From positions 1-43,176 of the forward strand of contig CAJXRR010000002.1 in assembly GCA_913060575.1 (NCBI GenBank): 43,176 nt of DNA. The letters are read 5' to 3'. Under the pieces are notes generated by a model, which saw only the letters and a list, made by a program, of their open reading frames with translations, was not told where the DNA came from and searched no databases. The DNA is from an uncultured Flavobacterium sp. (GTDB lineage: Bacteria > Bacteroidota > Bacteroidia > Flavobacteriales > Flavobacteriaceae). Shown piece after piece: positions 19,052 through 41,215 of the stretch; position 1 is the stretch's first letter, and each line of letters opens with the position of its first letter. The position numbers and the translations under genes are program-made.

Positions 19052-20518
19052 TTAGTTAGGTATGATTACATAGCTACCATCTAAGTCATTAAACCATACA
19101 TCGTATGAACCAGTTGGTGCATTGAAAGGGAAGTTATCTCCACCTGTATCAAATCTTCCTTGACCAAATAATTCATCTGATCCAGTATATCTCCAAAGAC
19201 CGTTACCCCAATCATCATTAGGTCTAATTAAGAACTCTTCACCGTTTGTGAATGTTACTCCATTAGCATACCATAAATGAGGGTTGTTAGGATCTTGTGT
19301 TAAATCTATTTCATCTCCATCTCCCCATCCACCGATAGCTTGACCAATAAGACCAATTCTAGCGTATGTTGGAGCTGTAGTAGCATCATAAGAAGTTACA
19401 GTAAATCCTGAACCAGCACTTAATGGAGCAAAAGTGTATGTATAATATCCAGCAGCACCTACATTAAATGTTCCTGGATCTGACCCACCACCTGGGTTTA
19501 CAGCAACTGTTGTACCATCATTGGTACCCCATTGTGGTTGCCATTGCCCTTTTGTTTCTAGCATTTTAAAGGCTCCTGCGTTAAAATAACCAGTAAAATA
19601 ATAAGAGTTTGGTGTCGTTTGACTTCTAAAAACCGCAGTATTGTTATTGTTGTTATTCCAACCTGGTGTGGTTGCATCTCCAACAAAATATAAATATGGG
19701 AAAATAGTATTAAAAGGTGTAATCGAAACAGTAATTGTTTCAGACGTTCTTGTTAAAGTACTTCCATTTTCATTAGTCGTTCTAGCGATAATTCTCATGT
19801 CAGCATCACCTGCTGTATCTGCAGGGATACCTAATCCTAAAGCAATAACATTTAATTCAGCATGAGTAACTTCTAATGTTTCTAAATTAGTTACAACACC
19901 AACAGCAGCAGGACTAGCAAAATCTGATCCTGCAGCAGCAGCTTCAATTGTATATTCAACATCAATACCTAAAGTAGATGATAATACTGCATCAGACCAG
20001 TTAACAGTCATTGCAACTAAATCTTGTGATGCTATTGATAGTACAAAACTATCTCCACCTACCGGACTACTTATTTGAGCAGGATCAGTTGGATAAGTAG
20101 TTACTAAAAATAACACTGTATTAGAGACCGAAGCCCCTGAATTAATTCTAACATAGACAGCTACATCTCTAAAGGTGGTAGCACCTGCATTAATGATTGC
20201 ATCATTTAAGTTTTCAACACTGTAAGAAAAAGATCTACCTGTAGCAGTTCCTAAAACGATAGGGGTTGCAAAAGTATCCTCTAATGACATTTCAACATCA
20301 TAAGAAGAGCTTCCTGTTAAATCATCTTTCCAAGTAACATTTAATGCTGGATTAGTAGGTAATCCAAAATTTAAGAAAATGTTACTAATTCCTGGTTGTT
20401 GTAATACAAAAGCAGCTTCAGGGCTAGTTATTGTAATACTTTCGTCGTCGTCACAAGCACCAAACAATAAAGTAAGGGCTAGAAAAGCAAAACTTAATTT
20501 TTTTAAATATAATTTCAT
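19052..20518 (-). CDS. susF: SusF-like outer-membrane starch-binding lipoprotein
   Basis: This non-catalytic alpha-glucan-binding protein is of the SusE/SusF group. A lipoprotein signal ends LLFGA|C22 followed by DDDES, an acidic run of the kind that directs Bacteroidetes lipoproteins to the cell surface. The N-terminal third is Ig/fibronectin-like (SusE-type domain). From about residue 275 two starch-binding modules follow. The first has YFVGDATTPGWNNNN and KGQWQPQWGTNDG; the second has GLIGQAIGGWGDGDE and ends YDVWFNDLDGSYVIIP. The 488 residues compare with 370 in its paralogue just upstream in the transcript. The exact SusE versus SusF label is by order and size only. The gap to the upstream gene is 21 nt. 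Confidence 0.85.
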   Translation of the reverse strand: MKLYLKKLSFAFLALTLLFGACDDDESITITSPEAAFVLQQPGISNIFLNFGLPTNPALNVTWKDDLTGSSSYDVEMSLEDTFATPIVLGTATGRSFSYSVENLNDAIINAGATTFRDVAVYVRINSGASVSNTVLFLVTTYPTDPAQISSPVGGDSFVLSIASQDLVAMTVNWSDAVLSSTLGIDVEYTIEAAAAGSDFASPAAVGVVTNLETLEVTHAELNVIALGLGIPADTAGDADMRIIARTTNENGSTLTRTSETITVSITPFNTIFPYLYFVGDATTPGWNNNNNNTAVFRSQTTPNSYYFTGYFNAGAFKMLETKGQWQPQWGTNDGTTVAVNPGGGSDPGTFNVGAAGYYTYTFAPLSAGSGFTVTSYDATTAPTYARIGLIGQAIGGWGDGDEIDLTQDPNNPHLWYANGVTFTNGEEFLIRPNDDWGNGLWRYTGSDELFGQGRFDTGGDNFPFNAPTGSYDVWFNDLDGSYVIIPN

Positions 20519-20539
20519 GTCTTTTATTTTATCTATTGA

Positions 20540-21652
20540 TTATAAGTTTAGAGGTATTAAAATATAACGACCTGTTAAGTCATTAAACCATACATCATAA
20601 TCATCTTCAACTACTACAGGAATATTTCCTCCATTCTCAGTTGCTTGTCCAGAAAACGATGTGCTTCCTGCCCAAACAGAACTTGTGTTAGTTAAAAATT
20701 GTAAATCACCAGGAACTAACCTTATATTATTCACATACCAGATATGACTATCAAATGTAGATTGAGTCATCGGAGCTGATGCAGGAGCTGATGATCCTTG
20801 CATTGTCATGCTTGTAAAATCAGTTGCTCCAGTTGCGTCGTAGGCCTCAAAAGAATAGTTATTATTAGAATAATCTATTCTAAAGGTATAAGAACCTGCT
20901 ACTGCAATAGGATTATTGTTGTTAGGGAATGTGTTAGGGTCACTTCCAGTTCCATCATTCACCTCAATAGAAGACCCATCATTAGTACCCCATTGAGGTT
21001 GCCATAATCCTTTAACTTCTAAAACTTTAAATTGTCCAGAATTGTAATAACCGGTATAGTAATATATGTTAGGATTTGATCCGTCTCTAAATAAAGGAGG
21101 GTTATTGTTGTTGTTATTCCATCCCGGAGCTGTTGCATCACCAACTAAATAATAGTCAGTAAACGGATAGTTAAAGAACGGACTCACCATCAAACTAATT
21201 GTGTTTGAAGTAAGTGGAATACCATTTTGCGATCCTAAAGAAGAGACAATTCTAACATAAATTGTACTAAAAGCAAATGGAGGTAAACCAACAGTTCCTG
21301 CAGCTGAGTTAAGTTCGTTGACACTTAATGTTGCAGAATTATTTCCAGTAACAGATGTTGTAGTTATTGGAGTGGTAAAAGCGTCATCTGATGCAAATTG
21401 AACTGCATAATTTACAGAGGCTTGTTGCCCGTAATCTGCTGATTGCCAATTTAAAGTAATCGCAGGATTGTTTGTGTTAACAGCATCTAATTCTATACTA
21501 GGAATTCCTAATTCTGCTAAAACAGGTGCGGTTGGGTTAGCAGCTGTAACAAATAGTTCTGCATCATCTTCACAAGAAGTAAACAGCACAATAGTAAGTG
21601 CCATGATGACCATGCTCGATAATAATTTTCTATAGTTTTTCATTGTTTTCAT
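20540..21652 (-). CDS. susE: SusE-like outer-membrane starch-binding lipoprotein
   Basis: Paralogue of the following SusF-like protein, 370 residues. The lipoprotein signal ends LFTS|C27 with EDDAE after the Cys, a surface-export type signal. An N-terminal SusE-type Ig-like domain (to about residue 160) precedes a module with YYLVGDATAPGWNNNN and KGLWQPQWGTNDG, and a C-terminal module ending YDVWFNDLTGRYILIP. These shared aromatic motifs probably line the glucan-binding sites. The start is either of two ATGs nine bases apart (MKTMKNYRK); the first, 4 nt after the susD stop, is given here. It sits directly after susD, as in known Sus loci. Confidence 0.86.
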   Translation of the reverse strand: MKTMKNYRKLLSSMVIMALTIVLFTSCEDDAELFVTAANPTAPVLAELGIPSIELDAVNTNNPAITLNWQSADYGQQASVNYAVQFASDDAFTTPITTTSVTGNNSATLSVNELNSAAGTVGLPPFAFSTIYVRIVSSLGSQNGIPLTSNTISLMVSPFFNYPFTDYYLVGDATAPGWNNNNNNPPLFRDGSNPNIYYYTGYYNSGQFKVLEVKGLWQPQWGTNDGSSIEVNDGTGSDPNTFPNNNNPIAVAGSYTFRIDYSNNNYSFEAYDATGATDFTSMTMQGSSAPASAPMTQSTFDSHIWYVNNIRLVPGDLQFLTNTSSVWAGSTSFSGQATENGGNIPVVVEDDYDVWFNDLTGRYILIPLNL

Positions 21653-21656
21653 TGTT

Positions 21657-23264
21657 TTAGTAACCTGGATTTTGAGTTAGGTTAGGGTTGGATGATAAAC
21701 TAGCAGCTGGAATTGGATATAAATCGTAATTTAAAGGTATTGCTATACCATTACTTCCATTTCCTTTCCATGCCCAGTTATAATTTCCGCCAGTGAAAAG
21801 ACCATATCTTATTAAGTCTTGACGTCTGTGTGCTTCCCAGTGTAGTTCTCTAGATCTTTCGTCTAAAATAAACTCTAGGGTAATATCTCCAACAGGAACT
21901 AAATTAGGGTTGTTAGCTCTTGTTCTTAATGCATCTATAAAACCTTTAGCGGTATTCATATCTCCACCATTTCCACCTCTTAATACAGCTTCAGCATACA
22001 TTAAGTAAACATCTGCTAATCTGAATAAAGGAAAATCTGTATCAACAAAAACTTGGTCAATACCAAAACCACCTGTAGAGGTTGCGTTAGAGTATTTTTG
22101 GATAATATATCCAGAATCTCTATCAGAAATATCAATGATGTTTACAGTTCTTCCTGCTGAAATGATCGTATTTCTTGTATCAGTACTATATAAACCACCA
22201 TCAAAAAGATCTGCAAATTGCTTTCTTACACGAAGGGCTCCTCCCCAGCCACCTGGCTCAACTCCTACTTCTGCTCCGTTTACTTCAATACTTCCAACAG
22301 AACCGTTAATCATTACTGTTCCTGGTCCAAAGTTTTGGGTAACTAAGCCATCTGAACCAATTGGGAAAATAATCTCATTAATTGCAGAATTCACATCGTT
22401 GTCTGCCATGAAATTGTGTGCATATTCATCTGCAAGCATAAACCCTCCACCAAGTATTTTATTAAGTTCTGTTAAAGCTTCAGTGTATTTAGCTTGTCCA
22501 ATATATACTTCTGCATTTAAATACATTTTAGATAAAATCATCCAAGCTACTGCTTGGTCAGCTCTACCATATTGATTTTGTCTTGGCGCTACTAAATCTG
22601 AATTAATTGCTTGTAGCTCAGACTCAACAAAAGCGAATAATTGTGCTCTGTCATATACTTGTGGAATTGTGTTTAAAGCATCGTCTTCAGTTATAAAGTT
22701 TGCTTTTCCGAATAAATCCATTAAGTGATAATAAGATAATGCTCTTAATAATCTTGCTTCTGCTCTGAAGTTTACAATCTCTGCACGAGTAGCTGCAGAA
22801 ACATTTCTTTCATCAAGTTTTGCATCTGTAGTCTCTCTTAATAAATTATTTGCAAATGCTACTGATGTATGAGCACGTCCCCAAAAACCTAAAAATATTG
22901 GGTTTTGAGTAGTCCAGATATTTCTTTGAATTTCTCTAGTTCCTGGATCATTTTCATAAGACCAAATCATTTGATCGGCCGATAATGTTTGCATGTAGAG
23001 CAATGTTCTACCGTACTGAGAAGTTCCGGCATCTAAACCTTGAATATTAGAACTTCCAGCACCATCAGTACCTGTTAATGCTAAGTTTCCATAAACACTA
23101 GCTAATACTTCTAGATAAGCACTTTCATTTTGAAAAAACTCGTCTGCCAGTGTGTTTTGATCATCTTGTGGTGTCACATCAAGATCTCCCTCACATGAGG
23201 TAAAGAAAGTGACTAGAACTAAGGATGCTATTAGAACCCTTAAATTTAAATATTTTGTTTTCAT
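21657..23264 (-). CDS. susD: SusD/RagB-family outer-membrane glycan-binding lipoprotein
   Basis: SusD forms the lid of the SusC transporter and captures glycan at the surface. The 535-residue protein has a lipoprotein signal (VTFFTS|C24, followed by EGDLD) and the family start DVTPQDDQNTLADEFFQNESAY. It has helical TPR-like segments (AEARLLRALSYYHLMDLFG) and the conserved C-terminal part ERSRELHWEAHRRQDLIRYG ending NPGY. Substrate is inferred from the neighbours (SusE/F, GH13, GH97) to be alpha-glucan. The start is 5 nt after the susC stop, as usual for SusCD pairs. Confidence 0.96.
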   Translation of the reverse strand: MKTKYLNLRVLIASLVLVTFFTSCEGDLDVTPQDDQNTLADEFFQNESAYLEVLASVYGNLALTGTDGAGSSNIQGLDAGTSQYGRTLLYMQTLSADQMIWSYENDPGTREIQRNIWTTQNPIFLGFWGRAHTSVAFANNLLRETTDAKLDERNVSAATRAEIVNFRAEARLLRALSYYHLMDLFGKANFITEDDALNTIPQVYDRAQLFAFVESELQAINSDLVAPRQNQYGRADQAVAWMILSKMYLNAEVYIGQAKYTEALTELNKILGGGFMLADEYAHNFMADNDVNSAINEIIFPIGSDGLVTQNFGPGTVMINGSVGSIEVNGAEVGVEPGGWGGALRVRKQFADLFDGGLYSTDTRNTIISAGRTVNIIDISDRDSGYIIQKYSNATSTGGFGIDQVFVDTDFPLFRLADVYLMYAEAVLRGGNGGDMNTAKGFIDALRTRANNPNLVPVGDITLEFILDERSRELHWEAHRRQDLIRYGLFTGGNYNWAWKGNGSNGIAIPLNYDLYPIPAASLSSNPNLTQNPGY

Positions 23265-23269
23265 TTTTT

Positions 23270-26155
23270 TTAGAATTTAATGTTAGCTCCAAATAAGAAA
23301 GTTCTTGCTCTTGGGTATATTGTATTGTCAATACCGTTAAATACTTCAGGATCTATCCCTGAATATTCACTGATAACAAATACGTTTTGCACACCAGTCC
23401 AAAGACGTACACTTTTAAACCCTTTAAATGGTTTTTCAAAGGTATATCCAAGTGTTACGTTATCCATTCTTAAAAAAGATCCATTCTCTATATAAATATC
23501 TGAAAGTATAACATCAGAAGTATTTAAAAAGTTCGTGTTTAAAACTGAAGTAGGAACGTTTCCTAAAACTGACTGATCTTGTAATAAAGCATATTGTGAG
23601 TTTGATGAGTTTACATTATTGTAAACATAATTTCCAATACTTGCTCTTAAGTTAAAAGAAAAATCAAAACTATCATAATTAAATGTCGATTGAAAACCAA
23701 AAGTAGCATCAGGGTCAGGATTGTTCTTTATATATCTGTCGTCATCATTAATTAAACCGTTACCATCTAAATCTGCATAAGCTCCTTCGATTGGATTGTT
23801 GTTGGTGTCATATAATTGTTTGTAAACAAAGAATGAATTTGGTGCAAATCCTTCACGAAGTAATTGAATATTATTTCCAGTTCCTCCTGCGATTCCTCCA
23901 GTTACAATATCTAAACCTAAAGGCAGATTGCTAATTTCTCTGTTAAAGAAAGAACCATTGAAGTTAATACTCCAGTTCATATTTTCCTTTTCTATAATAT
24001 CTGCATTGATAGAAAACTCTAATCCATCTACTCTAGAATCTCCAATATTTCGAACAATTCTGTTTGTAAAGTTTGCTCCTTCTGCTATTTGAGTAGGGAA
24101 TAATAAATCTTCAGATTTTTTTCGATAAGCACTTACACTACCTGTTATTTTATCATCAAATAGTCCGTAATCAATACCTACTTCTATAGTAGAAACTTCT
24201 TCCCATTTTAAATCTCTATTGATTGCTTGTGCAACTGCAGGAGAAATTACTAAACCTCCAAAGACAACTTGTGATTGTGGATCACCAGAACGAAAACGAT
24301 CTAAGTAAATAGTACCTTCATTAATACTCTGTTGACCATTGGTACCATAACTTGCTCTTAATTTTAAAGAAGAGATTGTTTTACTGTCTTTTAAGAAATC
24401 TTCTTCTCCAATTTGCCATGCACCTGCAACTCCAAAGAAGTTTCCAAAACGATTACTAGGACCAAACCTAGAAGTTCCATCTCTTCTGTAGTTAGCTGTA
24501 AATAAATATTTATCATTGTAAGATAACTCGAGTCTAGATATATAAGCCAAAAGGATCACATCATCATTTGTATTTACACCAGGAACAGAAAGAGGATCTC
24601 TTAAATTTCCTGTAAAGCTTCCTTCACCAACAAACTTTTGATAGTTATATCCTAAAGTACCTTTTACTTTTAACTTGTCAAAAGTCTTATCATAAGCAAA
24701 ATAAGTATTTAAGTTAGTATTTGTTGATTCAAAGTCTGAATACGATTCTGTACCTCTAAAAAGAGCTACAGGATCTGTAGTTGCAGCATATATAGAACTT
24801 AAAAATCTAGAATTAAATTTCTGATTATCGTACCCTAATTCTACAACTGCGTGTAATTCTGGTAAATTGTGAATTTCATAATCAAATCTTACATTTCCAA
24901 AAATTCTATCTGCATCAGTTATATTTAGATTCTGAGCTAATGCAGCTACTGGATTTCTTCCTCCGTTAGCAATATTAACACCATTTCTGTGTTGATAATA
25001 TCCTCCAAAAGGAGACATTGTATCAAAAACTGGTTGTGTTGGATCATAACGTAATGCTGCTGAAATTTGTCCTTGGTCTGCAGCGTCTCTAGAGTTATCA
25101 GCATAATTCGCATTAATGCTCACTTTTAAATGATCATCAAAGAAAGTAGGGTTTAAAGATAAAGAAACATTAGATCTTCTATTTTTATCGTGAATCAATA
25201 CTCCATTAACAACCGTATTACCAATAGATAGTCTTGTTGGTACTCCAAGAAGAGAACCTCTCACAGAAAGATTTGTGATTTTCTGTGCGCCATTTCTAAA
25301 GATTTCGTCTTGCCAATCTGTATTCGCAGTCCCTAAATCTCCAACTCTAGAAGGAAATTGTTGACCAACAATATTTCTAAATTCATCCGCAGAAAATACA
25401 TTTATTCTATTTTCATTAGTTGCAGAACTGTATTGTAAATCTAAATCAGCACTAAAACTCTTAGATCCTTTTTTAGTAGTAATGATGATGACACCATTTG
25501 CTGCACGAGACCCATAGATAGCTGTAGCTGATGCATCTTTAAGAATCGAAAAGGATTCGATATCATTTGGGTTTATAGAAGAAAGCGAAACGCCTTCTAA
25601 TGGTAAACCATCAATAATAATTAAAGGATCATTACTTCCAGAAACAGAAGCACCACCTCTTATACGAATTTGAGCACCTGCACCAGGAGCACCACTTTGT
25701 GTAATATTTACACCAGAAACACGACCAGATAATAAATTCTCTGGAGTTACAATATTTCCTCTAGTAAAGTCTTTTTGAGTAATAGCCTCTACAGAACCTG
25801 TAGCGTCTTTTATTGTAGTTGAACCGTAACCGATCACAACAATCTCATCGAGTCTTTGAGAACTTTCCTCAAGTTCAATTGTAATATTAAAATTTGAACC
25901 GATAGTAACTTCTTTGCTTGCAAAACCTAAATACGTTGCAACAATTACGTCTCCTGTCTTTATGTTTTTTAGTTCAAAGTTTCCATCAAAATCTGTAAAA
26001 GCACCATTCGTTGTACCTTTAACAATCAAGCTCACTCCAGGCAATCCTTCACCTGTTGCTTTTTCTTTTACCACACCTTTTAATGTTTGTTGGGCAAACA
26101 TCGCAAAAGATGAAAGTAGAAGAACTCCAGTTAACAATAATTTAAATTTTCTCAT
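23270..26155 (-). CDS. susC: SusC/RagA-family TonB-dependent outer-membrane transporter
   Basis: SusC imports oligosaccharides across the outer membrane using TonB energy. The start is set at 26155 (MRKFKLLLTGVLLL ... FAMFAQ, a clear signal peptide) instead of 26218 in the ORF track, which adds 21 residues before the signal peptide. The 961-residue protein has a carboxypeptidase-regulatory-like domain (LKGVVKEKATGEGLPGVSL) and a TonB-box-like segment (RLDEIVVIGYGS). The plug follows (IRIRGGASVSGSNDPLIIIDG, KDASATAIYGSRAANGVI), then a barrel ending RTFLFGANIKF. It is the first gene of the minus-strand operon, with paired operators upstream. Its TonB partner may be one of the two tonB genes in this window, but that is not shown. 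Confidence 0.96.
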   Translation of the reverse strand: MRKFKLLLTGVLLLSSFAMFAQQTLKGVVKEKATGEGLPGVSLIVKGTTNGAFTDFDGNFELKNIKTGDVIVATYLGFASKEVTIGSNFNITIELEESSQRLDEIVVIGYGSTTIKDATGSVEAITQKDFTRGNIVTPENLLSGRVSGVNITQSGAPGAGAQIRIRGGASVSGSNDPLIIIDGLPLEGVSLSSINPNDIESFSILKDASATAIYGSRAANGVIIITTKKGSKSFSADLDLQYSSATNENRINVFSADEFRNIVGQQFPSRVGDLGTANTDWQDEIFRNGAQKITNLSVRGSLLGVPTRLSIGNTVVNGVLIHDKNRRSNVSLSLNPTFFDDHLKVSINANYADNSRDAADQGQISAALRYDPTQPVFDTMSPFGGYYQHRNGVNIANGGRNPVAALAQNLNITDADRIFGNVRFDYEIHNLPELHAVVELGYDNQKFNSRFLSSIYAATTDPVALFRGTESYSDFESTNTNLNTYFAYDKTFDKLKVKGTLGYNYQKFVGEGSFTGNLRDPLSVPGVNTNDDVILLAYISRLELSYNDKYLFTANYRRDGTSRFGPSNRFGNFFGVAGAWQIGEEDFLKDSKTISSLKLRASYGTNGQQSINEGTIYLDRFRSGDPQSQVVFGGLVISPAVAQAINRDLKWEEVSTIEVGIDYGLFDDKITGSVSAYRKKSEDLLFPTQIAEGANFTNRIVRNIGDSRVDGLEFSINADIIEKENMNWSINFNGSFFNREISNLPLGLDIVTGGIAGGTGNNIQLLREGFAPNSFFVYKQLYDTNNNPIEGAYADLDGNGLINDDDRYIKNNPDPDATFGFQSTFNYDSFDFSFNLRASIGNYVYNNVNSSNSQYALLQDQSVLGNVPTSVLNTNFLNTSDVILSDIYIENGSFLRMDNVTLGYTFEKPFKGFKSVRLWTGVQNVFVISEYSGIDPEVFNGIDNTIYPRARTFLFGANIKF

Positions 26156-26267
26156 GTATTTTATGTTAAATAATAACCGTAAATTTGACTTGCGATTAAC
26201 AATAAATTTACATTCCACTTACCGAATGTATTAAATAAAAGTGTTGACTCCTTTAGTATATAACATA

Positions 26268-26281
26268 CGAAACCGATTTCG
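26268..26281. promoter_or_regulatory. Predicted LacI-type operator O1
   Basis: cgaaaccgatttcg is a near-palindrome (12 of 14 positions symmetric) of the LacI/GalR operator type with a central CG. It lies about 115 bp from the susC start and is the exact reverse complement of O2. It is followed by gtgttaacaactttt, which is repeated after O2. Binding by the adjacent LacI-family protein is inferred. Confidence 0.78.
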
Positions 26282-26308
26282 TGTTAACAACTTTTATTTT
26301 GATTTTTC

Positions 26309-26322
26309 CGAAATCGGTTTCG
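26309..26322. promoter_or_regulatory. Predicted LacI-type operator O2
   Basis: cgaaatcggtttcg is the exact reverse complement of O1 and starts 41 bp after it, close to four helical turns, so both sites would face the same side of the DNA. It lies about 70 bp before the ATG of the regulator gene. Confidence 0.78.
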
Positions 26323-26391
26323 TGTTAACAACTTTTGGAGGTTTTATCAAAAATACAAAAAACACTTATTTGATTATCGATATATCAAAAA

Positions 26392-27402
26392 ATGAAACAA
26401 AAAATTACAATAAAAACAATTTCAAAAGAACTAGGGGTTTCAACATCTACGGTATCTAAAGCTCTTAGAGATAGTCATGAAATAAGTGCAGAAACTAAAG
26501 AAAGAATTAAAGCGTACGCAGACTTTTTTAATTACAAACCTAATAACCTTGCATTACAGTTACGAAATCAAAAAACTAAAGTAATTGGTGTGATTCTTCC
26601 CAAAATAGTTCATCATTTCTTCTCAACAGTAATTAAAGGAATCGAAAAAGGAGCTAGTGAAAAAGGATATCATATCATGGTTTGCTTTTCTAACGAATCT
26701 TATCAAAGTGAGGTTGATAACTTAAAAGTGCTTTCTAACGGAAGTGTAGATGGCTTATTGATTTCTGTAGCCAAAGAGACTTTGCAAAATGAAGACTTTA
26801 AACACTTGCAAGATTTAGTAAATGAGGAAATTCCTTTGGTGATGTTTGATAGAGTTTTAGACTCTATAGATTGTGATAAAGTGATTGTTGATGATATCGG
26901 TGGTGGATATAAAGCTACGAAACATTTAATTGAGCAAGGAAGAAAAAGAATCGCAATGCTATCAACTCCAGCACACGTAAACATTGGTGTTTTACGAGAA
27001 AAAGGATATACAAGAGCATTAAAAGAGTTTAACTTATTAGAAAGCTCAAATCTTGCAATAGAGGTTGATGATAATTCTGATTTAAAAGAGCAAATTTTTA
27101 AAGTTATAGACAAAGATATTGATGCAATTTTTGCAGTAAATGAAATATATGCCGCTGTTGCAATTAGAGCAATAAGAGAAAAAGGAATGAAGGTTCCTGA
27201 AGATATTTCTGTCGTTGGATTTACGGACGGACTGATTTCAGAATATTCATCACCTTCAATAACAGCAATTGTTCAGCATGGTTTTACTATGGGAAAACAA
27301 GCGGTAGAATTGTTGATAGATAGAATAGAAAATGAAAGTGAAAATTTACCTCCAGCAACCAAGGTAATCTCTAGTACTTTAAATATTAGAGAATCTAGTT
27401 AA
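26392..27402 (+). CDS. LacI/GalR-family transcriptional regulator of the alpha-glucan locus
   Basis: The 336-residue protein has an N-terminal LacI-type helix-turn-helix (ITIKTISKELGVSTSTVSKALRDSHEIS, about residues 5-35) and hinge (YKPNNLALQLRNQKTKVIGVI). A periplasmic-binding-like sugar-sensing domain follows (VDGLLISVAKET, PLVMFDRV, VGFTDGLISEYSSPSIT). Such proteins bind palindromic operators and release or bind on meeting a sugar. The two operators just upstream and the divergent susC gene make it the probable local regulator and likely autoregulated. Classic Bacteroides Sus uses the membrane regulator SusR instead, which is not in view. Ligand (maltose, glucose or a phosphate ester) and sign of control are unknown. 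Confidence 0.94.
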   Translation: MKQKITIKTISKELGVSTSTVSKALRDSHEISAETKERIKAYADFFNYKPNNLALQLRNQKTKVIGVILPKIVHHFFSTVIKGIEKGASEKGYHIMVCFSNESYQSEVDNLKVLSNGSVDGLLISVAKETLQNEDFKHLQDLVNEEIPLVMFDRVLDSIDCDKVIVDDIGGGYKATKHLIEQGRKRIAMLSTPAHVNIGVLREKGYTRALKEFNLLESSNLAIEVDDNSDLKEQIFKVIDKDIDAIFAVNEIYAAVAIRAIREKGMKVPEDISVVGFTDGLISEYSSPSITAIVQHGFTMGKQAVELLIDRIENESENLPPATKVISSTLNIRESS

Positions 27403-27521: not shown

Positions 27522-27553
27522 TTATCGTAGTATTAACTAACAATATACGATAA
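27522..27553 (+). promoter_or_regulatory. Inverted repeat ending at the transporter start codon
   Basis: ttatcgta (27522-27529) and tacgataa (27546-27553) form an 8-bp perfect inverted repeat with a 16-nt spacer; the last base is the A of the MFS start codon. In RNA it could hide the start codon, or in DNA serve as a protein site. A second arm pair (aatttca 27482-27488 / tgaaatt 27500-27506) lies just upstream. Function is unknown. Confidence 0.35.
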
Positions 27554-28896
27554 TGAAAAAGCGTACCTTAGGTTTTTGGGAGATTTGGAACATGAGTTTC
27601 GGATTTCTAGGAATTCAAATGGGTTTTGCCCTACAAAATGCAAACGCTAGTAGAATACTTCAAATTTTTGGAGCTGATGTTCACGAACTTTCATGGTTTT
27701 GGCTGATCGCACCATTAATGGGGTTAATTGTTCAGCCAGTCATAGGTCACTACAGCGATAATACATGGACACGATTTGGAAGAAGAAAACCCTTCTTTTT
27801 ATTAGGTGCTGTCTTAGCATCTGTCGGAATGGTGTTAATTCCTCAAGCAGACTTTATGATTGCAATTCTGCCAGCTCTATGGGTTGGTGCAGGAATGTTA
27901 ATGATCATGGATGCATCATTTAATATTGCGATGGAGCCTTTTAGAGCTTTAGTAGCGGATAACTTATCAGATGAACAAACTACAAAAGGATTTAGTGTAC
28001 AAACTGCATTAATTGGTATAGGAGCTGTTATAGGTTCTTGGTTGCCGTGGGTGCTAACAAATTGGTTTGGTGTTGCAAAATTTTCAGAAGAAGGAACTGT
28101 ACCGGATAATTTATTATGGTCTTTTATTATTGGAGCAGTAGTTTTAATTGTTTCAATTTTGATAACCATTTTCACCACAAAAGAATACAGCCCAGAAGAA
28201 ATGGCTCAGTTTGAAAATGCTGAAGAATCTGATGAAGAAAAACCAAAAGCAAAATTATCTGACATTTTTGAAGATTTCAGGAAAATGCCTGAAACCATGC
28301 GTCAACTTAGCTGGGTACAGTTTTTTTCTTGGTTTGCTTTGTTTGGGATGTGGGTTTTTGCAACACCTGCAATTGCTCAACATATTTATGGTCTGCCCTT
28401 TAGTGACTCTAGTAGTGAAACCTATCAAGAGGCTGGAAATTGGGTTGGAATCTTATTTGGAATTTACAATGGAGTATCAGCATTATTTGCATTCATCCTC
28501 CCTGTTATAGCAAAATCTATTAGTAGAAAGAAAACACACGCTTACGCATTATTTTGCGGTGGTATAGGTCTTTTACTAATCTATTTCTTACCAAACCCGA
28601 ATTGGTTAATACTTTCTATGTTGTTTATTGGAATCGCTTGGGCAAGTATCTTATCAATGCCATATGCTATGTTAGCAGGTTCTATTTCTCCAAAAAAAAT
28701 GGGAGTTTATATGGGAATATTTAATTTTTTCATAGTAATGCCCCAAATTATTAACGGAGTAATTGGAGGACCTTTAGTAAAATACGCTTATGGTAATCAA
28801 GCAATATTTGCATTGGTAGTAAGTGGTGTTAGTTTTTTAATTGCCGGATTCTTATCATTTAGAATTAATGATAAAAAAGATATAGTAATAAAATGA
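27553..28896 (+). CDS. MFS transporter of the maltose/sucrose (GPH/SLC45-like) type
   Basis: This 447-residue inner-membrane carrier has about 12 hydrophobic segments and probably brings maltose or short maltodextrins into the cytoplasm. The start GFWEIWNMSFGFLGIQMGFALQNANASRI and the loop SDNTWTRFGRRKPFFLLG after helix 2 are characteristic of the glycoside/sucrose-type MFS carriers found beside GH65 genes in Bacteroidetes. A charged central loop (YSPEEMAQFENAEESDEEKPK) separates the two halves. It follows the regulator by 150 nt, so it may have its own promoter; TATCTTTA at 27446 is a weak -7 match. Its last 4 bases overlap pgmB. Substrate is inferred from the GH65 neighbour. Confidence 0.88.
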   Translation: MKKRTLGFWEIWNMSFGFLGIQMGFALQNANASRILQIFGADVHELSWFWLIAPLMGLIVQPVIGHYSDNTWTRFGRRKPFFLLGAVLASVGMVLIPQADFMIAILPALWVGAGMLMIMDASFNIAMEPFRALVADNLSDEQTTKGFSVQTALIGIGAVIGSWLPWVLTNWFGVAKFSEEGTVPDNLLWSFIIGAVVLIVSILITIFTTKEYSPEEMAQFENAEESDEEKPKAKLSDIFEDFRKMPETMRQLSWVQFFSWFALFGMWVFATPAIAQHIYGLPFSDSSSETYQEAGNWVGILFGIYNGVSALFAFILPVIAKSISRKKTHAYALFCGGIGLLLIYFLPNPNWLILSMLFIGIAWASILSMPYAMLAGSISPKKMGVYMGIFNFFIVMPQIINGVIGGPLVKYAYGNQAIFALVVSGVSFLIAGFLSFRINDKKDIVIK

Positions 28897-29573
28897 AAAT
28901 AAAAGGGTTCATATTTGATTTAGATGGTGTTATTGTTGATACTGCTAAATATCATTTTTTAGCTTGGAGAAAATTGGCCAATTCAGTTGGTGTTGATTTT
29001 ACTGAAGAGCAAAATGAGCAACTAAAAGGAGTAAGTAGAGTTAAGTCTTTAGAAAAGATTTTGGCTTGGGGAAGCATAACACTCTCTGACGATAAGTTCA
29101 CTGAATTAATGACAAAAAAGAATCATGATTATTTGAAGTATGTCGATCAAATGGACGAGTCAGAAATTTTACCCGATGTTACCAAAGTTTTAGCGTATTT
29201 GCAATTAAAAAGTCAACCTATTTCTTTAGGTTCTGCAAGTAAAAATGCACGTAATATCTTAAAAAAAGTAAGCCTATTTGAATCATTTGATGCTATTGTT
29301 GATGGTACTGATGTTTCTAAAGGAAAACCAAACCCCGAAGTATTTTTAACTGCAGCTAAGCTTTTAAACTTAAGCCCAGAAGACTGTATCGTATTTGAGG
29401 ATTCTGTAGCCGGAATTCAAGCAGCAAATAATGCAAACATGATTTCTATTGGTATAGGAAGTTCAGAAGTGTTATTTGAAGCAGATTTTGTTTTTAAAGA
29501 TTTTACTGAAATCTCAACAGAATTTATAGACATGCTCTTAACAGAAGAGTTAAAATTAAAGAATCAATCCTAA
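28893..29573 (+). CDS. pgmB: Beta-phosphoglucomutase (HAD superfamily)
   Basis: It converts beta-glucose 1-phosphate, the product of maltose phosphorylase, to glucose 6-phosphate in the cytoplasm. The 226-residue HAD protein has the nucleophile motif FDLDGVIVDT (D9 nucleophile, D11 acid/base) and a helical cap with WRKLANSVGVDF and LKGVSRVKSLEKIL typical of this enzyme. Later come SLGSASKNA (motif II), KGKPNPEVF (motif III Lys) and VFEDSVAGIQAA (motif IV acids). It overlaps the transporter by 4 nt (atga) and precedes GH65 by 15 nt, the usual trio. Confidence 0.95.
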   Translation: MKIKGFIFDLDGVIVDTAKYHFLAWRKLANSVGVDFTEEQNEQLKGVSRVKSLEKILAWGSITLSDDKFTELMTKKNHDYLKYVDQMDESEILPDVTKVLAYLQLKSQPISLGSASKNARNILKKVSLFESFDAIVDGTDVSKGKPNPEVFLTAAKLLNLSPEDCIVFEDSVAGIQAANNANMISIGIGSSEVLFEADFVFKDFTEISTEFIDMLLTEELKLKNQS

Positions 29574-29588
29574 GAAAAAAATAGAAGA

Positions 29589-31895
29589 ATGAATCAAGAT
29601 TATATCATTCCAAATGAGTGGTCTATCGTAGAAGAAGGATTTGACCCTAAGACTGTAAAATCATCTGAAAGCCTTTTCAGTATTGGTAATGGAGCTATGG
29701 GCCAAAGAGCAAATTTTGAAGAAGATTATTCAGGAGAGACGTTTCAAGGAAGTTATATTGCAGGAGTATATTACCCAGATAAAACAAGAGTAGGTTGGTG
29801 GAAAAATGGATATCCAGAATATTTTGCCAAAGTCCTGAACGCTCCAAATTGGATCGGAATTAATGTATTTGTCAATCAAGAGAAATTAGACCTTAATACC
29901 TGTAAAGAAATTTCGAACTTTAGAAGAGAGCTCAACATGAAAGAAGGTTGGCTTTCTAGAAGTTTTAAAGCAACTTTACAAAACAACATTCAAATTAATG
30001 TAGTTAGTAAACGATTTTTGAGCTTACAGTTTGATGAATTAGGAGTTATCAATTATTCTGTAACACCAATAAACTCAGATGCAGAAATCACTTTAACTTC
30101 TTATTTAGACGGAGCTATTACCAATGAAGATACTAATTGGGACGATCAGTTTTGGAATATCACAGATATTACTCAAGAAAATCATCAGTCATTTATACAA
30201 GCAACAACCATGAAAACAGATTTTCATACCTGTACATTCATGGAATCAAGAGTATTTGTAGACAATCAATTAGTGAATTTAGACTGCGAAGAAATAAACT
30301 CTTCAGCTTCGGTTTCTACTTCTTACACAAACCAAACCAAACAAGGACAGACTATTGCCATTCATAAGTTTGGAGGGTATGTTGTGGATAGAAATCATGA
30401 CAAATTCAAACTCGTAGAGGCTGCAAAAAACATATTAAAAAAAGGAACTGATTTAGGTTTCGAAAAATTATTAGAGCTTCAAAAGAAATCATGGACTCAA
30501 ATTTGGGACATGGCAGATATCACTATTGAAGGAGATGTAAAAGCGCAACAAGCCATAAGGTTCAATATATTTCAATTAAACCAAACCTATTTAGGAACTG
30601 ATGCCTCACTAAACATAGGGCCTAAAGGCTTTACTGGTGAAAAATATGGAGGTAGTACCTATTGGGATACGGAAGCTTATTGTATTCCTTTCTACATGGC
30701 GACAAAAGATCAAAAAGTAGCAAGAACTTTATTAGAATATCGATACAATCATCTAGAGAAAGCTATTGAGAATGCTGAAAAATTAGGATTCAAAAATGGA
30801 GCTGCTCTATACCCAATGGTGACGATGAATGGAGAAGAATGTCATAACGAATGGGAAATTACTTTTCAAGAAATTCATAGAAACGGAGCCATTGCTTTTG
30901 CCATTTACAACTATCACCGATATACGAATGATTATAGTTATATTCCAGAAAAAGGATTAGAAGTATTAATAGCGATTGCTCGTTTTTGGCATCAAAGAGC
31001 TACTTACTCTACAGATAAAGGAAAGTATGTAATTTTAGGTGTAACAGGTCCAAACGAATACGAAAACAATATTAACAACAATTGGTATACAAATTATATT
31101 GCAAAATGGTGTATTGATTATGCTGTTGAATGTCTATATAAAGTAGCTGATGCGTATAGAGAGGATTCAATTAGAATTCTTAAAAAAACAAAGGTAACAA
31201 AAGCGGAAATTGAAAAATGGAAAGAAGTTGCAGAAAATATGTTTTTTCCCTATTCAGAAGAACATAAAGTCTTTTTGCAGCAAGATGGATTTTTAGACAA
31301 AGACTTAGTAACTGTTGCCGATTTAGATCAATCACAAAGACCCATCAATCAGCATTGGTCTTGGGATAGAATTTTACGATCTCCTTACATCAAACAAGCA
31401 GATACATTACAAGGGTTTTATTTCTTTGAAGACCATTTTTCAGAAGAAGAATTAGAACGTCATTATAATTTTTATGAACCATTTACCGTTCACGAATCTT
31501 CTTTGTCTCCTTGTGTACACAGCGTTCAGGCGGCTAAACTAGGTAAAATGGACGAAGCTTATACCTTCTATCTTAGAACCTCTAGATTAGACTTAGACGA
31601 TTACAATCATGAAGTGCATGAAGGACTACATATTACATCTATGGCAGGTACTTGGATGAGTATTGTAGAAGGTTTTGGAGGAATGAGAGTAAAGGATAAT
31701 AAATTATCATTTACGCCTAGAATTCCAAAACAATGGAAAGGATACTCGTTTAAAATTAATTTTAGAAATCAGGTTTTAAAAGTTAACATACACCAAAACA
31801 AAACTGATTTTGAATTAGATAGTGGAGATGAATTAACCATTTTAGTGAACGATAAATTAGTGGTAGTTACCCCAAACGACTTAGTAACAGTATAG
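29589..31895 (+). CDS. GH65 maltose phosphorylase
   Basis: An inverting phosphorylase: maltose + phosphate gives beta-glucose 1-phosphate + glucose, in the cytoplasm (no signal peptide). The 768-residue length fits the family. The N-terminal beta-sandwich is followed by the helical catalytic barrel with KGFTGEKYGGSTYWDTE, GEECHNEWEITFQEIHRNG, and VTGPNEYENN; E490 in GPNEYE is the predicted general acid. KQADTLQGFYF and STLSPCVHS-like HESSLSPCVHS form the phosphate-binding region. GH65 also contains trehalose and kojibiose phosphorylases; maltose is favoured by the pgmB, MFS and Sus-type setting. It yields free glucose as well, and no glucokinase is in this window. Confidence 0.9.
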   Translation: MNQDYIIPNEWSIVEEGFDPKTVKSSESLFSIGNGAMGQRANFEEDYSGETFQGSYIAGVYYPDKTRVGWWKNGYPEYFAKVLNAPNWIGINVFVNQEKLDLNTCKEISNFRRELNMKEGWLSRSFKATLQNNIQINVVSKRFLSLQFDELGVINYSVTPINSDAEITLTSYLDGAITNEDTNWDDQFWNITDITQENHQSFIQATTMKTDFHTCTFMESRVFVDNQLVNLDCEEINSSASVSTSYTNQTKQGQTIAIHKFGGYVVDRNHDKFKLVEAAKNILKKGTDLGFEKLLELQKKSWTQIWDMADITIEGDVKAQQAIRFNIFQLNQTYLGTDASLNIGPKGFTGEKYGGSTYWDTEAYCIPFYMATKDQKVARTLLEYRYNHLEKAIENAEKLGFKNGAALYPMVTMNGEECHNEWEITFQEIHRNGAIAFAIYNYHRYTNDYSYIPEKGLEVLIAIARFWHQRATYSTDKGKYVILGVTGPNEYENNINNNWYTNYIAKWCIDYAVECLYKVADAYREDSIRILKKTKVTKAEIEKWKEVAENMFFPYSEEHKVFLQQDGFLDKDLVTVADLDQSQRPINQHWSWDRILRSPYIKQADTLQGFYFFEDHFSEEELERHYNFYEPFTVHESSLSPCVHSVQAAKLGKMDEAYTFYLRTSRLDLDDYNHEVHEGLHITSMAGTWMSIVEGFGGMRVKDNKLSFTPRIPKQWKGYSFKINFRNQVLKVNIHQNKTDFELDSGDELTILVNDKLVVVTPNDLVTV

Positions 31896-31927
31896 AGAGG
31901 GTTTTGTAGCTGTTTAAAAAATAAAAG

Positions 31928-33862
31928 ATGAAAAAAAAAATCTATCTATTTGCATTCTTTGGCTTTCTTTTTTTGACTTCATGTCAAGAGAATCATATAA
32001 ATACAGATGCACCCGAACTTTCAGAAACATCAAATGATGTTGAACGAGTAGAGCCGCCAAATTGGTGGGTTGGTTTTGAAAACACTCAATTGCAATTACT
32101 TGTAAATCACCCTAATATTGGTAGAGCAGAAGCTTCTGTTTTATATCCTGGAGTTACTTTAAAAAAGGCTCACCAAGCAAAAAGTCCTAACTATGTATTT
32201 TTAGATTTAGAAATTAGTGATAAAGCTCCTGCAGGGAAATTTAACATCGTTTTTAAAACTCCAGAAGGGAAAGAATTAAAACAAACGTATGAGTTAAAAT
32301 CAAGGGAAAAATCAGCAGAAGAATATGTAGGTTTTAATAGCTCCGATGTATTGTATTTGATTACACCAGATAGATTTGCTAATGGAAATTCAAAAAATGA
32401 TGTTTTTGAAAGCTTGAATGAAAAAAAGATCAATAGAAAAGACGATTATGCACGTCATGGAGGAGACATTACAGGAATTACAAATCATTTAGATTACATC
32501 CAAGAGATGGGTTTTACAGCAGTTTGGCCAAGTCCTTTATTGACCAATGATATGCCAGGACAATCTTATCATGGATATGCTATGACAGATTTTTACGAAG
32601 TAGATCCTAGATTTGGCACATTAGAAGAATATAGGAAATTAGCAAATGAAGGACATAAAAGAGGTATTAAACTTATTATGGATCAAGTAGCCAATCATTG
32701 CGGATTAGAACATTGGTGGATGAGAGATTTACCATTTTCTGATTGGGTAAACTACCAAGAGAATTATGAAAATAATATAGACAATTGGAACAATAGCGTT
32801 AATCAAAACACCAATCATAGAAGAACAGCCAATCAAGATTCCTATGCTTCACAAGTAGACAAAAATCGTTTGTCTCAAGGATGGTTTGTTTCTGGAATGC
32901 CAGATTTAAATCAGCGAAACCCTTTTATGGCAAATTACATCACACAAAATAGTATTTGGTGGATTGAGACTTTAGGTTTGGGTGGAATTCGTCAAGACAC
33001 TTACCCGTATCCAGACAAAGAATTTATGTCAAATTGGGCAGGAGCCATCATGAAAGAATATCCCAACTTTAATATCGTGGGAGAAGAATGGAGTTATAAT
33101 CCATTATTAATTAGTTATTGGCAAGATGGAAAAGTAAACAAAGACGGATACGATTCTAATTTGCGTTCTACCATGGATTTTGCCATGCAAAGTTTGGTAG
33201 TGCAAGCCTTAAACGAAGAAGAATCTTGGGACAAAGGGTTGGTGAAAATCTATGAAGGTTTGGCGAATGATTTTGCCTATTACAACCCAAAAGACATTAT
33301 GGTATTTCCAGATAACCATGACATGAGTAGAATTTTTACTCAGTTGAAAGGAAATATTCCAAATACAAAAATGGCGTTGAGTACTTATTTAACCTTGCCA
33401 AGAACTCCACAGATATATTACGGAACAGAAATTTTAATGGATGATTTCAAAAAACCAGGTGATCACGGATTGATTCGTACAGATTTCCCTGGAGGATGGA
33501 ATGGAGATACAGTCAATGCATTTACTGGAGAAGGTTTGTCAGCAGATCAAAAAGACATGCAATCTTTTTTAAAGACCTTATTAAATTATAGAAAATCTAG
33601 TAAAGCAATTCATGTAGGAAAAACGATTCACTTTGCTCCAAGAGAAGGTATCTATGTAATGTTTAGAATGTATGAAGATGAAATAGTCACGATTATTTTA
33701 AACAAATCTGATGTAACACAAGTTGAAACAGGAATAGTCGCTGAAATTGGATTAGAAGGAAAAACAGTCAAAGATATTATTACTGGAAAAGAAATGATTT
33801 TTAAAGACGAAATCACAATCAATCCCAATGGAGTGACTTTATTGACCACTAAACTCAAATAA
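31928..33862 (+). CDS. GH13 neopullulanase/cyclomaltodextrinase-like lipoprotein (SusA role)
   Basis: It cleaves alpha-1,4 (and often pullulan or cyclodextrin) linkages of imported oligosaccharides, probably in the periplasm. Of 644 residues, the lipoprotein signal ends FLTS|C19 with QENHIN after the Cys; no acidic surface-export run is seen. Residues ~40-125 are the cyclomaltodextrinase-type N-domain (PPNWWVGFENTQLQLLV). The barrel has region I MDQVANH, nucleophile D357 (GGIRQD), acid E386 (IVGEEW) and D465 (FPDNHD), with MPDLNQRNP typical of neopullulanases. Note Gln at the position just before the nucleophile. It starts 32 nt after GH65 and ends 1 nt before the esterase gene. Confidence 0.92.
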   Translation: MKKKIYLFAFFGFLFLTSCQENHINTDAPELSETSNDVERVEPPNWWVGFENTQLQLLVNHPNIGRAEASVLYPGVTLKKAHQAKSPNYVFLDLEISDKAPAGKFNIVFKTPEGKELKQTYELKSREKSAEEYVGFNSSDVLYLITPDRFANGNSKNDVFESLNEKKINRKDDYARHGGDITGITNHLDYIQEMGFTAVWPSPLLTNDMPGQSYHGYAMTDFYEVDPRFGTLEEYRKLANEGHKRGIKLIMDQVANHCGLEHWWMRDLPFSDWVNYQENYENNIDNWNNSVNQNTNHRRTANQDSYASQVDKNRLSQGWFVSGMPDLNQRNPFMANYITQNSIWWIETLGLGGIRQDTYPYPDKEFMSNWAGAIMKEYPNFNIVGEEWSYNPLLISYWQDGKVNKDGYDSNLRSTMDFAMQSLVVQALNEEESWDKGLVKIYEGLANDFAYYNPKDIMVFPDNHDMSRIFTQLKGNIPNTKMALSTYLTLPRTPQIYYGTEILMDDFKKPGDHGLIRTDFPGGWNGDTVNAFTGEGLSADQKDMQSFLKTLLNYRKSSKAIHVGKTIHFAPREGIYVMFRMYEDEIVTIILNKSDVTQVETGIVAEIGLEGKTVKDIITGKEMIFKDEITINPNGVTLLTTKLK

Positions 33863-33863
33863 G

Positions 33864-34814
33864 ATGAAAAAATATATTCTTCCATTTTTATTTGTAATCT
33901 CTATTATTTCTTGTCAAACACAAGAAAAGAAAGATTCAAAAATTGCTGTTAAAACAGATCACAGTATTCAATTAGGTTCAGGAACCATTCAAAGAATAGA
34001 TTCTTTTCCTTCAAAAAACATCGTGCCAAGACCTGTAGACATTTGGCTTCCTGATGGGTATTCTAACAATAAAAAATACGCGGTTTTGTACATGCATGAC
34101 GGACAGATGCTATTCGATTCTTTGAGTACTTGGAACAAACAAGAATGGAAGGTAGATGAATGGGCAGGTCAATTACAAAAAGAAGGAAAAACAAAAGATT
34201 TTATAGTTGTCGCTCCACATAATATTTCTAAAATAAGATGGAATGATTATTTTCCAGAGAAAGCCTTCAATTACCTTTCTAAATCGGCACAAGATTCGTT
34301 AAAAATGATGGCCAAAAAAAATAATTTTGAAATGACAATGAATGCTGATAGGTATCTAAAATTCTTAACAGAAGAATTAAAACTTTACATCGATCAAAAC
34401 TATTCTGTACAAACAGATAAAGCCAATACAGTAGTTTCTGGCTCAAGTATGGGTGGTTTAATTTCTATGTACGCTATAAGTGAATATCCAGATGTATTTG
34501 GTGCTGCAGCTTGTATTTCTACACATTGGCCGGGTGCTGGTGTTTATGAAGGAAACCCAATGCCCGAAGCTATTTTTGCCTATATGAAAGAACACACACC
34601 TCCTTCAAAAGACCATAGATTATATTTTGATTATGGAACTAAAACCTTAGATCAATTCTATCCTCAATATGCAGAAACTGTAAATAAAATTTATACTGAT
34701 AACGGATACGACTCAACAAACTTTGTTAATAGATTATTTGAAGGAGCAGATCATTCAGAAAACTCTTGGAATCAACGATTAGATATTCCATTTATTTTTT
34801 TATTAGGTAAGTAA
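33864..34814 (+). CDS. Alpha/beta-hydrolase, esterase-D type lipoprotein
   Basis: The 316-residue protein has a lipoprotein signal (SIIS|C17) and a serine-hydrolase fold of the putative esterase (PF00756-like) type. VDIWLPDGYSNNKKYAVLYMHDGQ starts the domain. The nucleophile elbow is GSSMGG (S195), and a C-terminal GADHSENSW gives the probable catalytic His. Relatives include feruloyl, acetyl-xylan and enterobactin esterases as well as many enzymes of unknown substrate. It lies 1 nt from the GH13 before and 1 nt from the GH31 after, so it belongs to the operon. Its substrate is not clear: an acyl group on alpha-glucan is a guess, and a misannotated non-sugar ester role is possible. Confidence 0.85.
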   Translation: MKKYILPFLFVISIISCQTQEKKDSKIAVKTDHSIQLGSGTIQRIDSFPSKNIVPRPVDIWLPDGYSNNKKYAVLYMHDGQMLFDSLSTWNKQEWKVDEWAGQLQKEGKTKDFIVVAPHNISKIRWNDYFPEKAFNYLSKSAQDSLKMMAKKNNFEMTMNADRYLKFLTEELKLYIDQNYSVQTDKANTVVSGSSMGGLISMYAISEYPDVFGAAACISTHWPGAGVYEGNPMPEAIFAYMKEHTPPSKDHRLYFDYGTKTLDQFYPQYAETVNKIYTDNGYDSTNFVNRLFEGADHSENSWNQRLDIPFIFLLGK

Positions 34815-34815
34815 T

Positions 34816-37197: not shown

Positions 37198-37202
37198 GTC
37201 AG

Positions 37203-39074: not shown

Positions 39075-39091
39075 TTTAAAACTATAAAATC

Positions 39092-41209: not shown

Positions 41210-41215
41210 CAACAA

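Follow-up and report, generated by a model that had tools for sequence, protein, structure and literature searches.

Introduction

Alpha-glucan PULs rank with the most frequent PULs of marine Bacteroidetes, and what is known of their regulation comes mostly from gut Bacteroides and SusR. For the LacI family, published surveys describe CcpA, FruR, GapR, PckR and GluR in a central-carbon role, and within this phylum they cover only Bacteroides (PMC4052901). When CcpA works as an activator it binds 14 bp upstream of the -35 element (quoted in PMC6882875), and AraQ/MalR1 sites that lie upstream of -35 mark activated genes (PMC6882875). The flavobacterial sigma-A -7 box, described in F. psychrophilum, is TAnnTTTG at -12 to -5 (PMC9723704). 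Our literature search, which left subscription journals mostly uncovered, found nothing on LacI-type activation of starch PULs in Flavobacteriia, and no LacI global carbon regulator for Flavobacteriia either.

We analysed a stretch of 43,176 nucleotides (the window; contig CAJXRR010000002.1 of assembly GCA_913060575.1, positions 1 to 43,176). It carries an alpha-glucan PUL of a Polaribacter-group metagenome-assembled genome, with two operators, O1 and O2, located between susC and a lacI-type gene. In our main reading, to which we give a probability of about 0.58, both operators would be bound by the adjacent LacI-family protein, which would activate the susC operon, and O2 would be a duplicate.

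Results

A divergent alpha-glucan locus with two LacI-type operators

The locus comprises the following features:

16139..18991, minus strand: secreted T9SS-sorted alpha-amylase-family (GH13) protein
19052..21652, minus strand: two SusE/SusF-like genes (20540-21652 and 19052-20518)
21657..23264, minus strand: susD
23270..26155, minus strand: susC, TonB-dependent receptor, first gene of the outer-membrane operon
26223..26230, minus strand: predicted -7 box of the susC promoter, TACATTCG (consensus TAnnTTTG), with a predicted transcription start at about 26218
26268..26281, no strand assigned: O1, LacI-type operator CGAAACCGATTTCG
26282..26295, minus strand: tail 1, the companion box, reading AAAAGTTGTTAACA in susC sense and adjoining O1 on its upstream side
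26309..26322, no strand assigned: O2, LacI-type operator CGAAATCGGTTTCG, extra copy
26323..26336, minus strand: tail 2, second copy of the companion box
26392..27402, plus strand: LacI-family regulator, 336 aa, of dimer-type length, recognition helix VSTSTVSKAL
27553..42853, plus strand: alpha-glucan catabolic genes, in the order MFS/GPH transporter, beta-phosphoglucomutase, GH65, cyclomaltodextrinase-like GH13, esterase, GH31, GH13, GH97, GH13

The original prediction had placed the two operators in a divergent control region, and this setting is correct, with susC on the minus strand and the lacI-type gene (26392-27402) on the plus strand. The gene order, GH13-susEFDC divergent to lacI-MFS-bPGM-GH65-GH13, is kept in Polaribacter, Tenacibaculum, Cellulophaga and Arenibacter, as are the operator and the companion box. 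The predicted 5' leader of susC (26156-26218, minus strand) is also strongly conserved in sequence in relatives (GTGGAATGTAAATTTATTGTTAA ... AAATTTACAGTTATTATTTAACA); it holds an inverted repeat, GTAAATTT/AAATTTAC, at 26204-26211 and 26179-26186, with an ordinary folding energy (z -0.5).

As had been noticed, O1 and O2 are exact reverse complements, 41 bp apart from start to start, and both are followed by the identical tail TGTTAACAACTTTT (26282-26295 and 26323-26336); their assignment to the LacI-family type of operator is likewise supported. The spacing corresponds to 3.9 helical turns, so that O1 and O2 lie on one helix face. They are the only exact motif matches in the window, where three sites are found when up to two mismatches are allowed, against 0.20 expected (none of 100 shuffles reached three). 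Across the 2.2-Mb assembly, CGAAANCGNTTTCG has 6 exact matches, compared with about 0.06 expected from base composition. The motif is not randomly distributed in the genome, its other exact sites being at pckA, GAPDH, pfkA and one secreted-protein gene. Rfam gave no credible match in the O1/O2 region.

CGAAANCGNTTTCG is an even palindrome with a central CG, and 12 of its 14 positions are invariant in 46 relatives. In a near-palindrome with two variable positions, asymmetric copies can only be identical or mutually inverted, and the inversion therefore adds no information. In addition, relatives with a single site show the asymmetric core in either orientation (18 and 2 of 46), so we rejected any meaning in the mutual inversion of O1 and O2.

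The adjacent regulator is a LacI-family protein of dimer-type length

The 26392-27402 protein consists of an N-terminal LacI helix-turn-helix (PF00356, 42.4 bits, cut-off 27) and a periplasmic-binding-protein-like sensor domain (PF13377, 99.7 bits). Its structure matches are PurR, CcpA and LacI, and it is PurR/CcpA-like. The LacI match runs up to residue 309 of the 360 in LacI (query residue 313 of 336 in total), and the C-terminal tetramerisation segment beyond the core is absent. Two dimers side by side or a tetramer had been envisaged on the pair: the common helix face that this idea relied on stands with the 41-bp spacing, but with a protein of 336 residues, whose LacI match stops before the tetramerisation tail, a LacI tetramer bridging O1 and O2 is unlikely. 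A tetramer or loop was accordingly rejected on protein length and spacing.

A third LacI-family protein of the same genome (L070, contig C128) is probably another PUL regulator, judging from the many orthologues (L180-L209) that adjoin another susC-like gene.

O2 as a probable lineage-specific duplicate

Relatives of the LacI protein were found at 58 loci, almost all with a single operator, which precedes the lacI start codon by 85-92 bp and is followed by the box. The pair is not a conserved design: it is present in 1 of 168 genus genomes and relatives have a single operator with its companion box, which led us to reject a conserved double operator. A search for two sites within 10-40 bp found no other genome among the 168 of the genus; among 400 sampled family genomes there was one other pair (G223), with sites 48 bp apart and beside unrelated genes. 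We also looked in genus and family genomes for a close relative sharing the 41-bp duplication and found none.

When the two 41-bp units are compared, the operator and tail match at 26 of 28 positions and the remainder at only 3 of 13. O1 is 52 from the susC -7 box (51 in relatives) and O2 is at -83 from the lacI ATG (-85 to -92 in relatives); each site thus keeps one of the two ancestral distances, as expected from the insertion of one 41-bp unit. From these comparisons, O1 with its companion box is best read as the ancestral site and O2 as a recent, lineage-specific 41-bp tandem duplicate. The source genome is fragmented (180 contigs, 77% complete), which would fit an assembly artefact. Nevertheless, the single-site version is kept in 46 non-redundant relatives, the O1 and O2 copies differ in core and spacer, and the chance expectation is negligible, so that a chance repeat or an artefact has next to no probability; for the motif itself, both are already refuted.

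A distant relative (L036:7831-7875) has its own operator pair upstream of susC, 31 bp (three turns) apart, its second operator being 92 from the -7 box; by sequence, this is an independent case of in-phase doubling.

Fixed geometry of the susC promoter favours activation

Promoter positions were counted from the first base of the operator. In the 46 non-redundant relatives, the companion-box consensus is AAAGTTRTYAACA and the composite site, in susC sense, reads AAAGTTRTYAACA-CGAAANCGNTTTCG-T, with TATTG around 27-31 and TATATTTAC at 51-59. The box is nearly invariant, palindromic (GTTR-T-YAAC) and in a fixed place beside the operator. The -7 box starts at position 51 in 42 of the 46 susC promoters, with a predicted transcription start near position 63 and a predicted operator centre near -55.5. 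In susC and amylase promoters the -7 box follows the operator at 36 bp, which places the operator upstream of -33; in the susC set, 14 bp separate the operator end from the common TTG (29-31), as quoted for activating CcpA (PMC6882875), and a TTG at the -33 spacing is kept in 65%. In the window, O1 is at 52 rather than 51 and O2 at 93 (51+42, so 42 bp or four turns past the canonical 51). More distant relatives have their -7 box one helical turn further, at 60-61; in the most distant ones (L039-L041) the companion box is missing, but the phasing between operator and -7 box persists. The operator of Cellulophaga and Arenibacter has changed to GCAACNNGTTGC, with the box and position 51 retained.

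These phased spacings (51, 60-61 and 93) are as expected of a protein touching RNA polymerase from one helix face, and because the operator lies upstream at a fixed distance and helical phase, a dimer bound there would most likely touch the polymerase and work as an activator. An activator is also favoured over a repressor because the operator is upstream of -33 and centred near -55.5, as at CcpA/AraQ-activated promoters; the CcpA/AraQ-type placement, upstream of -35/-33 and in helical phase, is the one observed, at positions 51 and 60-61, one turn apart. By the predicted starts, the operator neither overlaps the promoter core nor lies just downstream of it, as a classical repressor site would. 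The repressor geometry implied by the original prediction does not match an operator that sits a constant distance upstream of the susC -33/-7 region.

We nevertheless considered that a LacI-family dimer at O1 (and O2) could block susC until released by maltodextrin, since most LacI-family proteins are local repressors, usually autoregulated (PMC4052901). A TTG inside the companion box would then serve as the -33 element and a TRnnTTTT immediately after the operator as the -7 box, with the operator in between, and TTG-N20-TRnnTTTT can indeed be read around the operator in many relatives. However, the otherwise invariant box varies most at the G of that TTG, the TRnnTTTT run is missing from the amylase promoters that bear the same composite site, and steric blocking would not require the -7 box to lie in phase at 51 or 60-61. 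The first two of these points also led us to set aside the companion box as a -33 element with the -7 after the operator, a model weakened because its TTG varies in G and the amylase promoters do not have that -7. Classical repression is thus unlikely, and our analysis favours activation over it. Some points still count against activation. Position-specific contact can repress too, as GalR does at its upstream site, and contact-dependent repression of this type would likewise need phase. The susC promoter is not obviously weak, given the 65% with a TTG at the -33 spacing, and the -7 box might instead be the TRnnTTTT run that directly follows the operator.

Alternatively, the real activator could bind the companion box and be displaced by the LacI protein as its antagonist. 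As such a scheme would have it, the box is palindromic, hardly varies and stays in its fixed place even where the operator sequence has changed, but in L039-L041 the operator is in phase with the -7 box without any companion box, and we consider a separate activator very improbable.

The activation model that we prefer would run as follows. The protein encoded alongside, a MalR-like candidate alpha-glucan regulator, would bind O1 and O2; its effector is probably maltose, a maltodextrin or a phosphorylated glucose. A dimer at O1, centred about -56 from the predicted start, would contact RNA polymerase and activate the susCDEF/amylase operon, while O2 (centre about -97, on the same face and four turns upstream) would probably raise local occupancy or synergy and may additionally act on lacI. 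The binding, the sign of regulation and the roles given to O2 and the companion box are what we infer, by sequence comparison, from the conserved sites, their fixed geometry and the gene set. One regulator may control its own gene jointly with the outer-membrane operon, as had been proposed, but on the lacI side no promoter element is found at a fixed distance to the operator in relatives, where weak -7-like sequences occur near -24. Autoregulation of lacI through O1/O2 is a plausible possibility.

The composite site recurs at amylase promoters

We searched 99 genus genomes for the composite site, defined as companion box plus operator with at most two mismatches. It is found in 58 of them, namely all 57 with a window-type LacI orthologue and one without, an agreement that is partly trivial because site and gene are neighbours. 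Extra composite sites elsewhere in some genomes lie upstream of alpha-amylase-type genes, five families in all: three of GH13, one of GH57 and a fifth without Pfam match. TAnnTT starts at 51 in 19 of these 20 extra promoters, with no other recurrent position and a background of 0.012 per position; the exception, off by one base, is C148 of the window's own genome. With the five families aligned at 51, 0 of 200000 random shifts achieve the alignment, the families being few and their promoters dissimilar outside the shared elements. Just 11% of the amylase promoters have a TTG at the -33 spacing, which fits promoters that depend on an activator.

The C148 site (L071, 2230-2255) is upstream of a 719-aa secreted protein without Pfam match, possibly an unrecognised alpha-glucan-binding or -degrading protein. 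In 8 of 10 family A amylase promoters (L322, L324, L325, L327, L329, L334, L338, L339), a second half-site, CGATTTCG, is seen at 24-31, over the -33 region and 17 bp centre to centre from the operator; it could represent a second binding event.

A near-identical motif marks central-carbon genes

The symmetric motif CGAAATCGATTTCG is exact at pckA, GAPDH and pfkA of the window's genome, G000 (C67:7455, C80:1522 and C85:9591; L074, L072 and L073), and one-mismatch sites are found before enolase (C66:10646) and in the pyruvate kinase operon (C106:7196). Genus-wide there are 167 exact motif sites versus 45 for the reversed pattern, and nearly all of the symmetric sites examined across the genus fall at these genes again. 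The GAPDH operator, with a -7 box at position 33, overlaps the -33 region and has no companion box. The pckA site (L074:7455-7468) is inside the first codons of the annotated frame (encoding TKSIS), as in many genus genomes; either it is an intragenic operator or the true start codon is further downstream. In the GAPDH promoters of G028, G035, G049, G057, G063, G068, G073, G081 and G090, a shortened CGAAATCGTTTGA nearer the -7 box replaces the full operator and may be a drifted site or a core-promoter element.

The motif is present in 71 of 85 genomes with a LacI match and in 2 of 14 without (both incomplete), the LacI-free genomes not being phylogenetically independent. GAPDH promoters of LacI-free genomes have lost the motif, genomes with only the C31-type LacI clade keep the GAPDH site, and half-sites persist in G049, G082 and G094, which have no clear C31 relative. 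The regulator of this set is probably the orphan LacI protein of contig C31 (clade helix VSISTVSK), and the set itself is a candidate LacI-family central-carbon regulon of Polaribacter-group bacteria.

The orphan protein might share O1 and O2 with the local one, or even be their main user, in which case they would convey carbon status and not maltodextrin. The recognition helices differ at one base-reading residue (VSTSTVSK vs VSISTVSK) and the two motifs by one or two bases, and bifidobacterial AraQ and MalR1 share operators in a similar way (PMC6882875). However, the symmetric TA core of the central-carbon genes occurs in 0 of the 46 local operators, the central-carbon sites lack the companion box and the composite site tracks the local LacI gene, which makes this reading improbable.

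Discussion

Taken together, the two motifs suggest a broader picture, which we offer tentatively and at somewhat less than even odds. In marine Flavobacteriaceae, a LacI-family activator on phased composite sites (about -55 or -65) would turn on starch uptake and amylases, an orphan LacI protein with nearly the same motif would run glycolysis and gluconeogenesis, and starch use would thereby be tied to central carbon flow in a single two-tier LacI network; the starch promoter of this genome has a second in-phase composite site. If this holds, SusR has given way in a large clade to a soluble LacI-family activator acting at a precisely phased promoter, its regulon is predictable by the rule of a composite site 36 bp before TAnnTT, and the system offers a clean test of LacI-type activation with the Bacteroidetes polymerase. 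In the same clade, the presence of CGAAATCGATTTCG at pckA, GAPDH and pfkA hints at a global carbon regulon of the LacI family that has yet to be described.

Comparison with known systems

As in the Bacteroides Sus system, susC, susD, susE/F-like and amylase genes for alpha-glucan are gathered in one locus. In contrast to SusR, the candidate regulator is a cytoplasmic LacI-family protein, and the divergent gene, at this locus, does not encode a membrane-bound SusR. SusR motifs are direct repeats 67/77 bp apart (PMC3878776), whereas here palindromes are 41 bp apart. The original prediction that regulation would be unlike SusR control agrees with this, the locus regulator being of the LacI family and its sites palindromic.

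MalR, MdxR and MalI (PMC4052901) share with this locus the LacI family, the maltodextrin context and an even palindrome with central CG; their typical role, however, is repression, and the window protein scores below the cut-off of the NCBIfam MalI model (118 vs 310 bits). The central-carbon set is comparable to LacI-family control of pckA, gap, pfk and related genes by GapR, PckR and GluR of Alphaproteobacteria and by FruR/Cra (PMC4052901), from which it differs in motif and lineage. CcpA of Firmicutes, in its activating mode, is likewise a LacI-family dimer 14 bp upstream of -35, but here the regulator is local and PUL-linked, and no HPr co-effector is indicated.

The Bifidobacterium AraQ/MalR1 system (PMC6882875) also has two LacI-type proteins, one with a maltose name, near-identical operators, control of central carbon genes (gap, eno, pyk) and activation when the site is upstream of -35. 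It belongs to a different phylum, its sites are unrelated and it has no single fixed distance, whereas here a fixed position (-55.5/-65.5) is common to the starch genes, together with a companion box.
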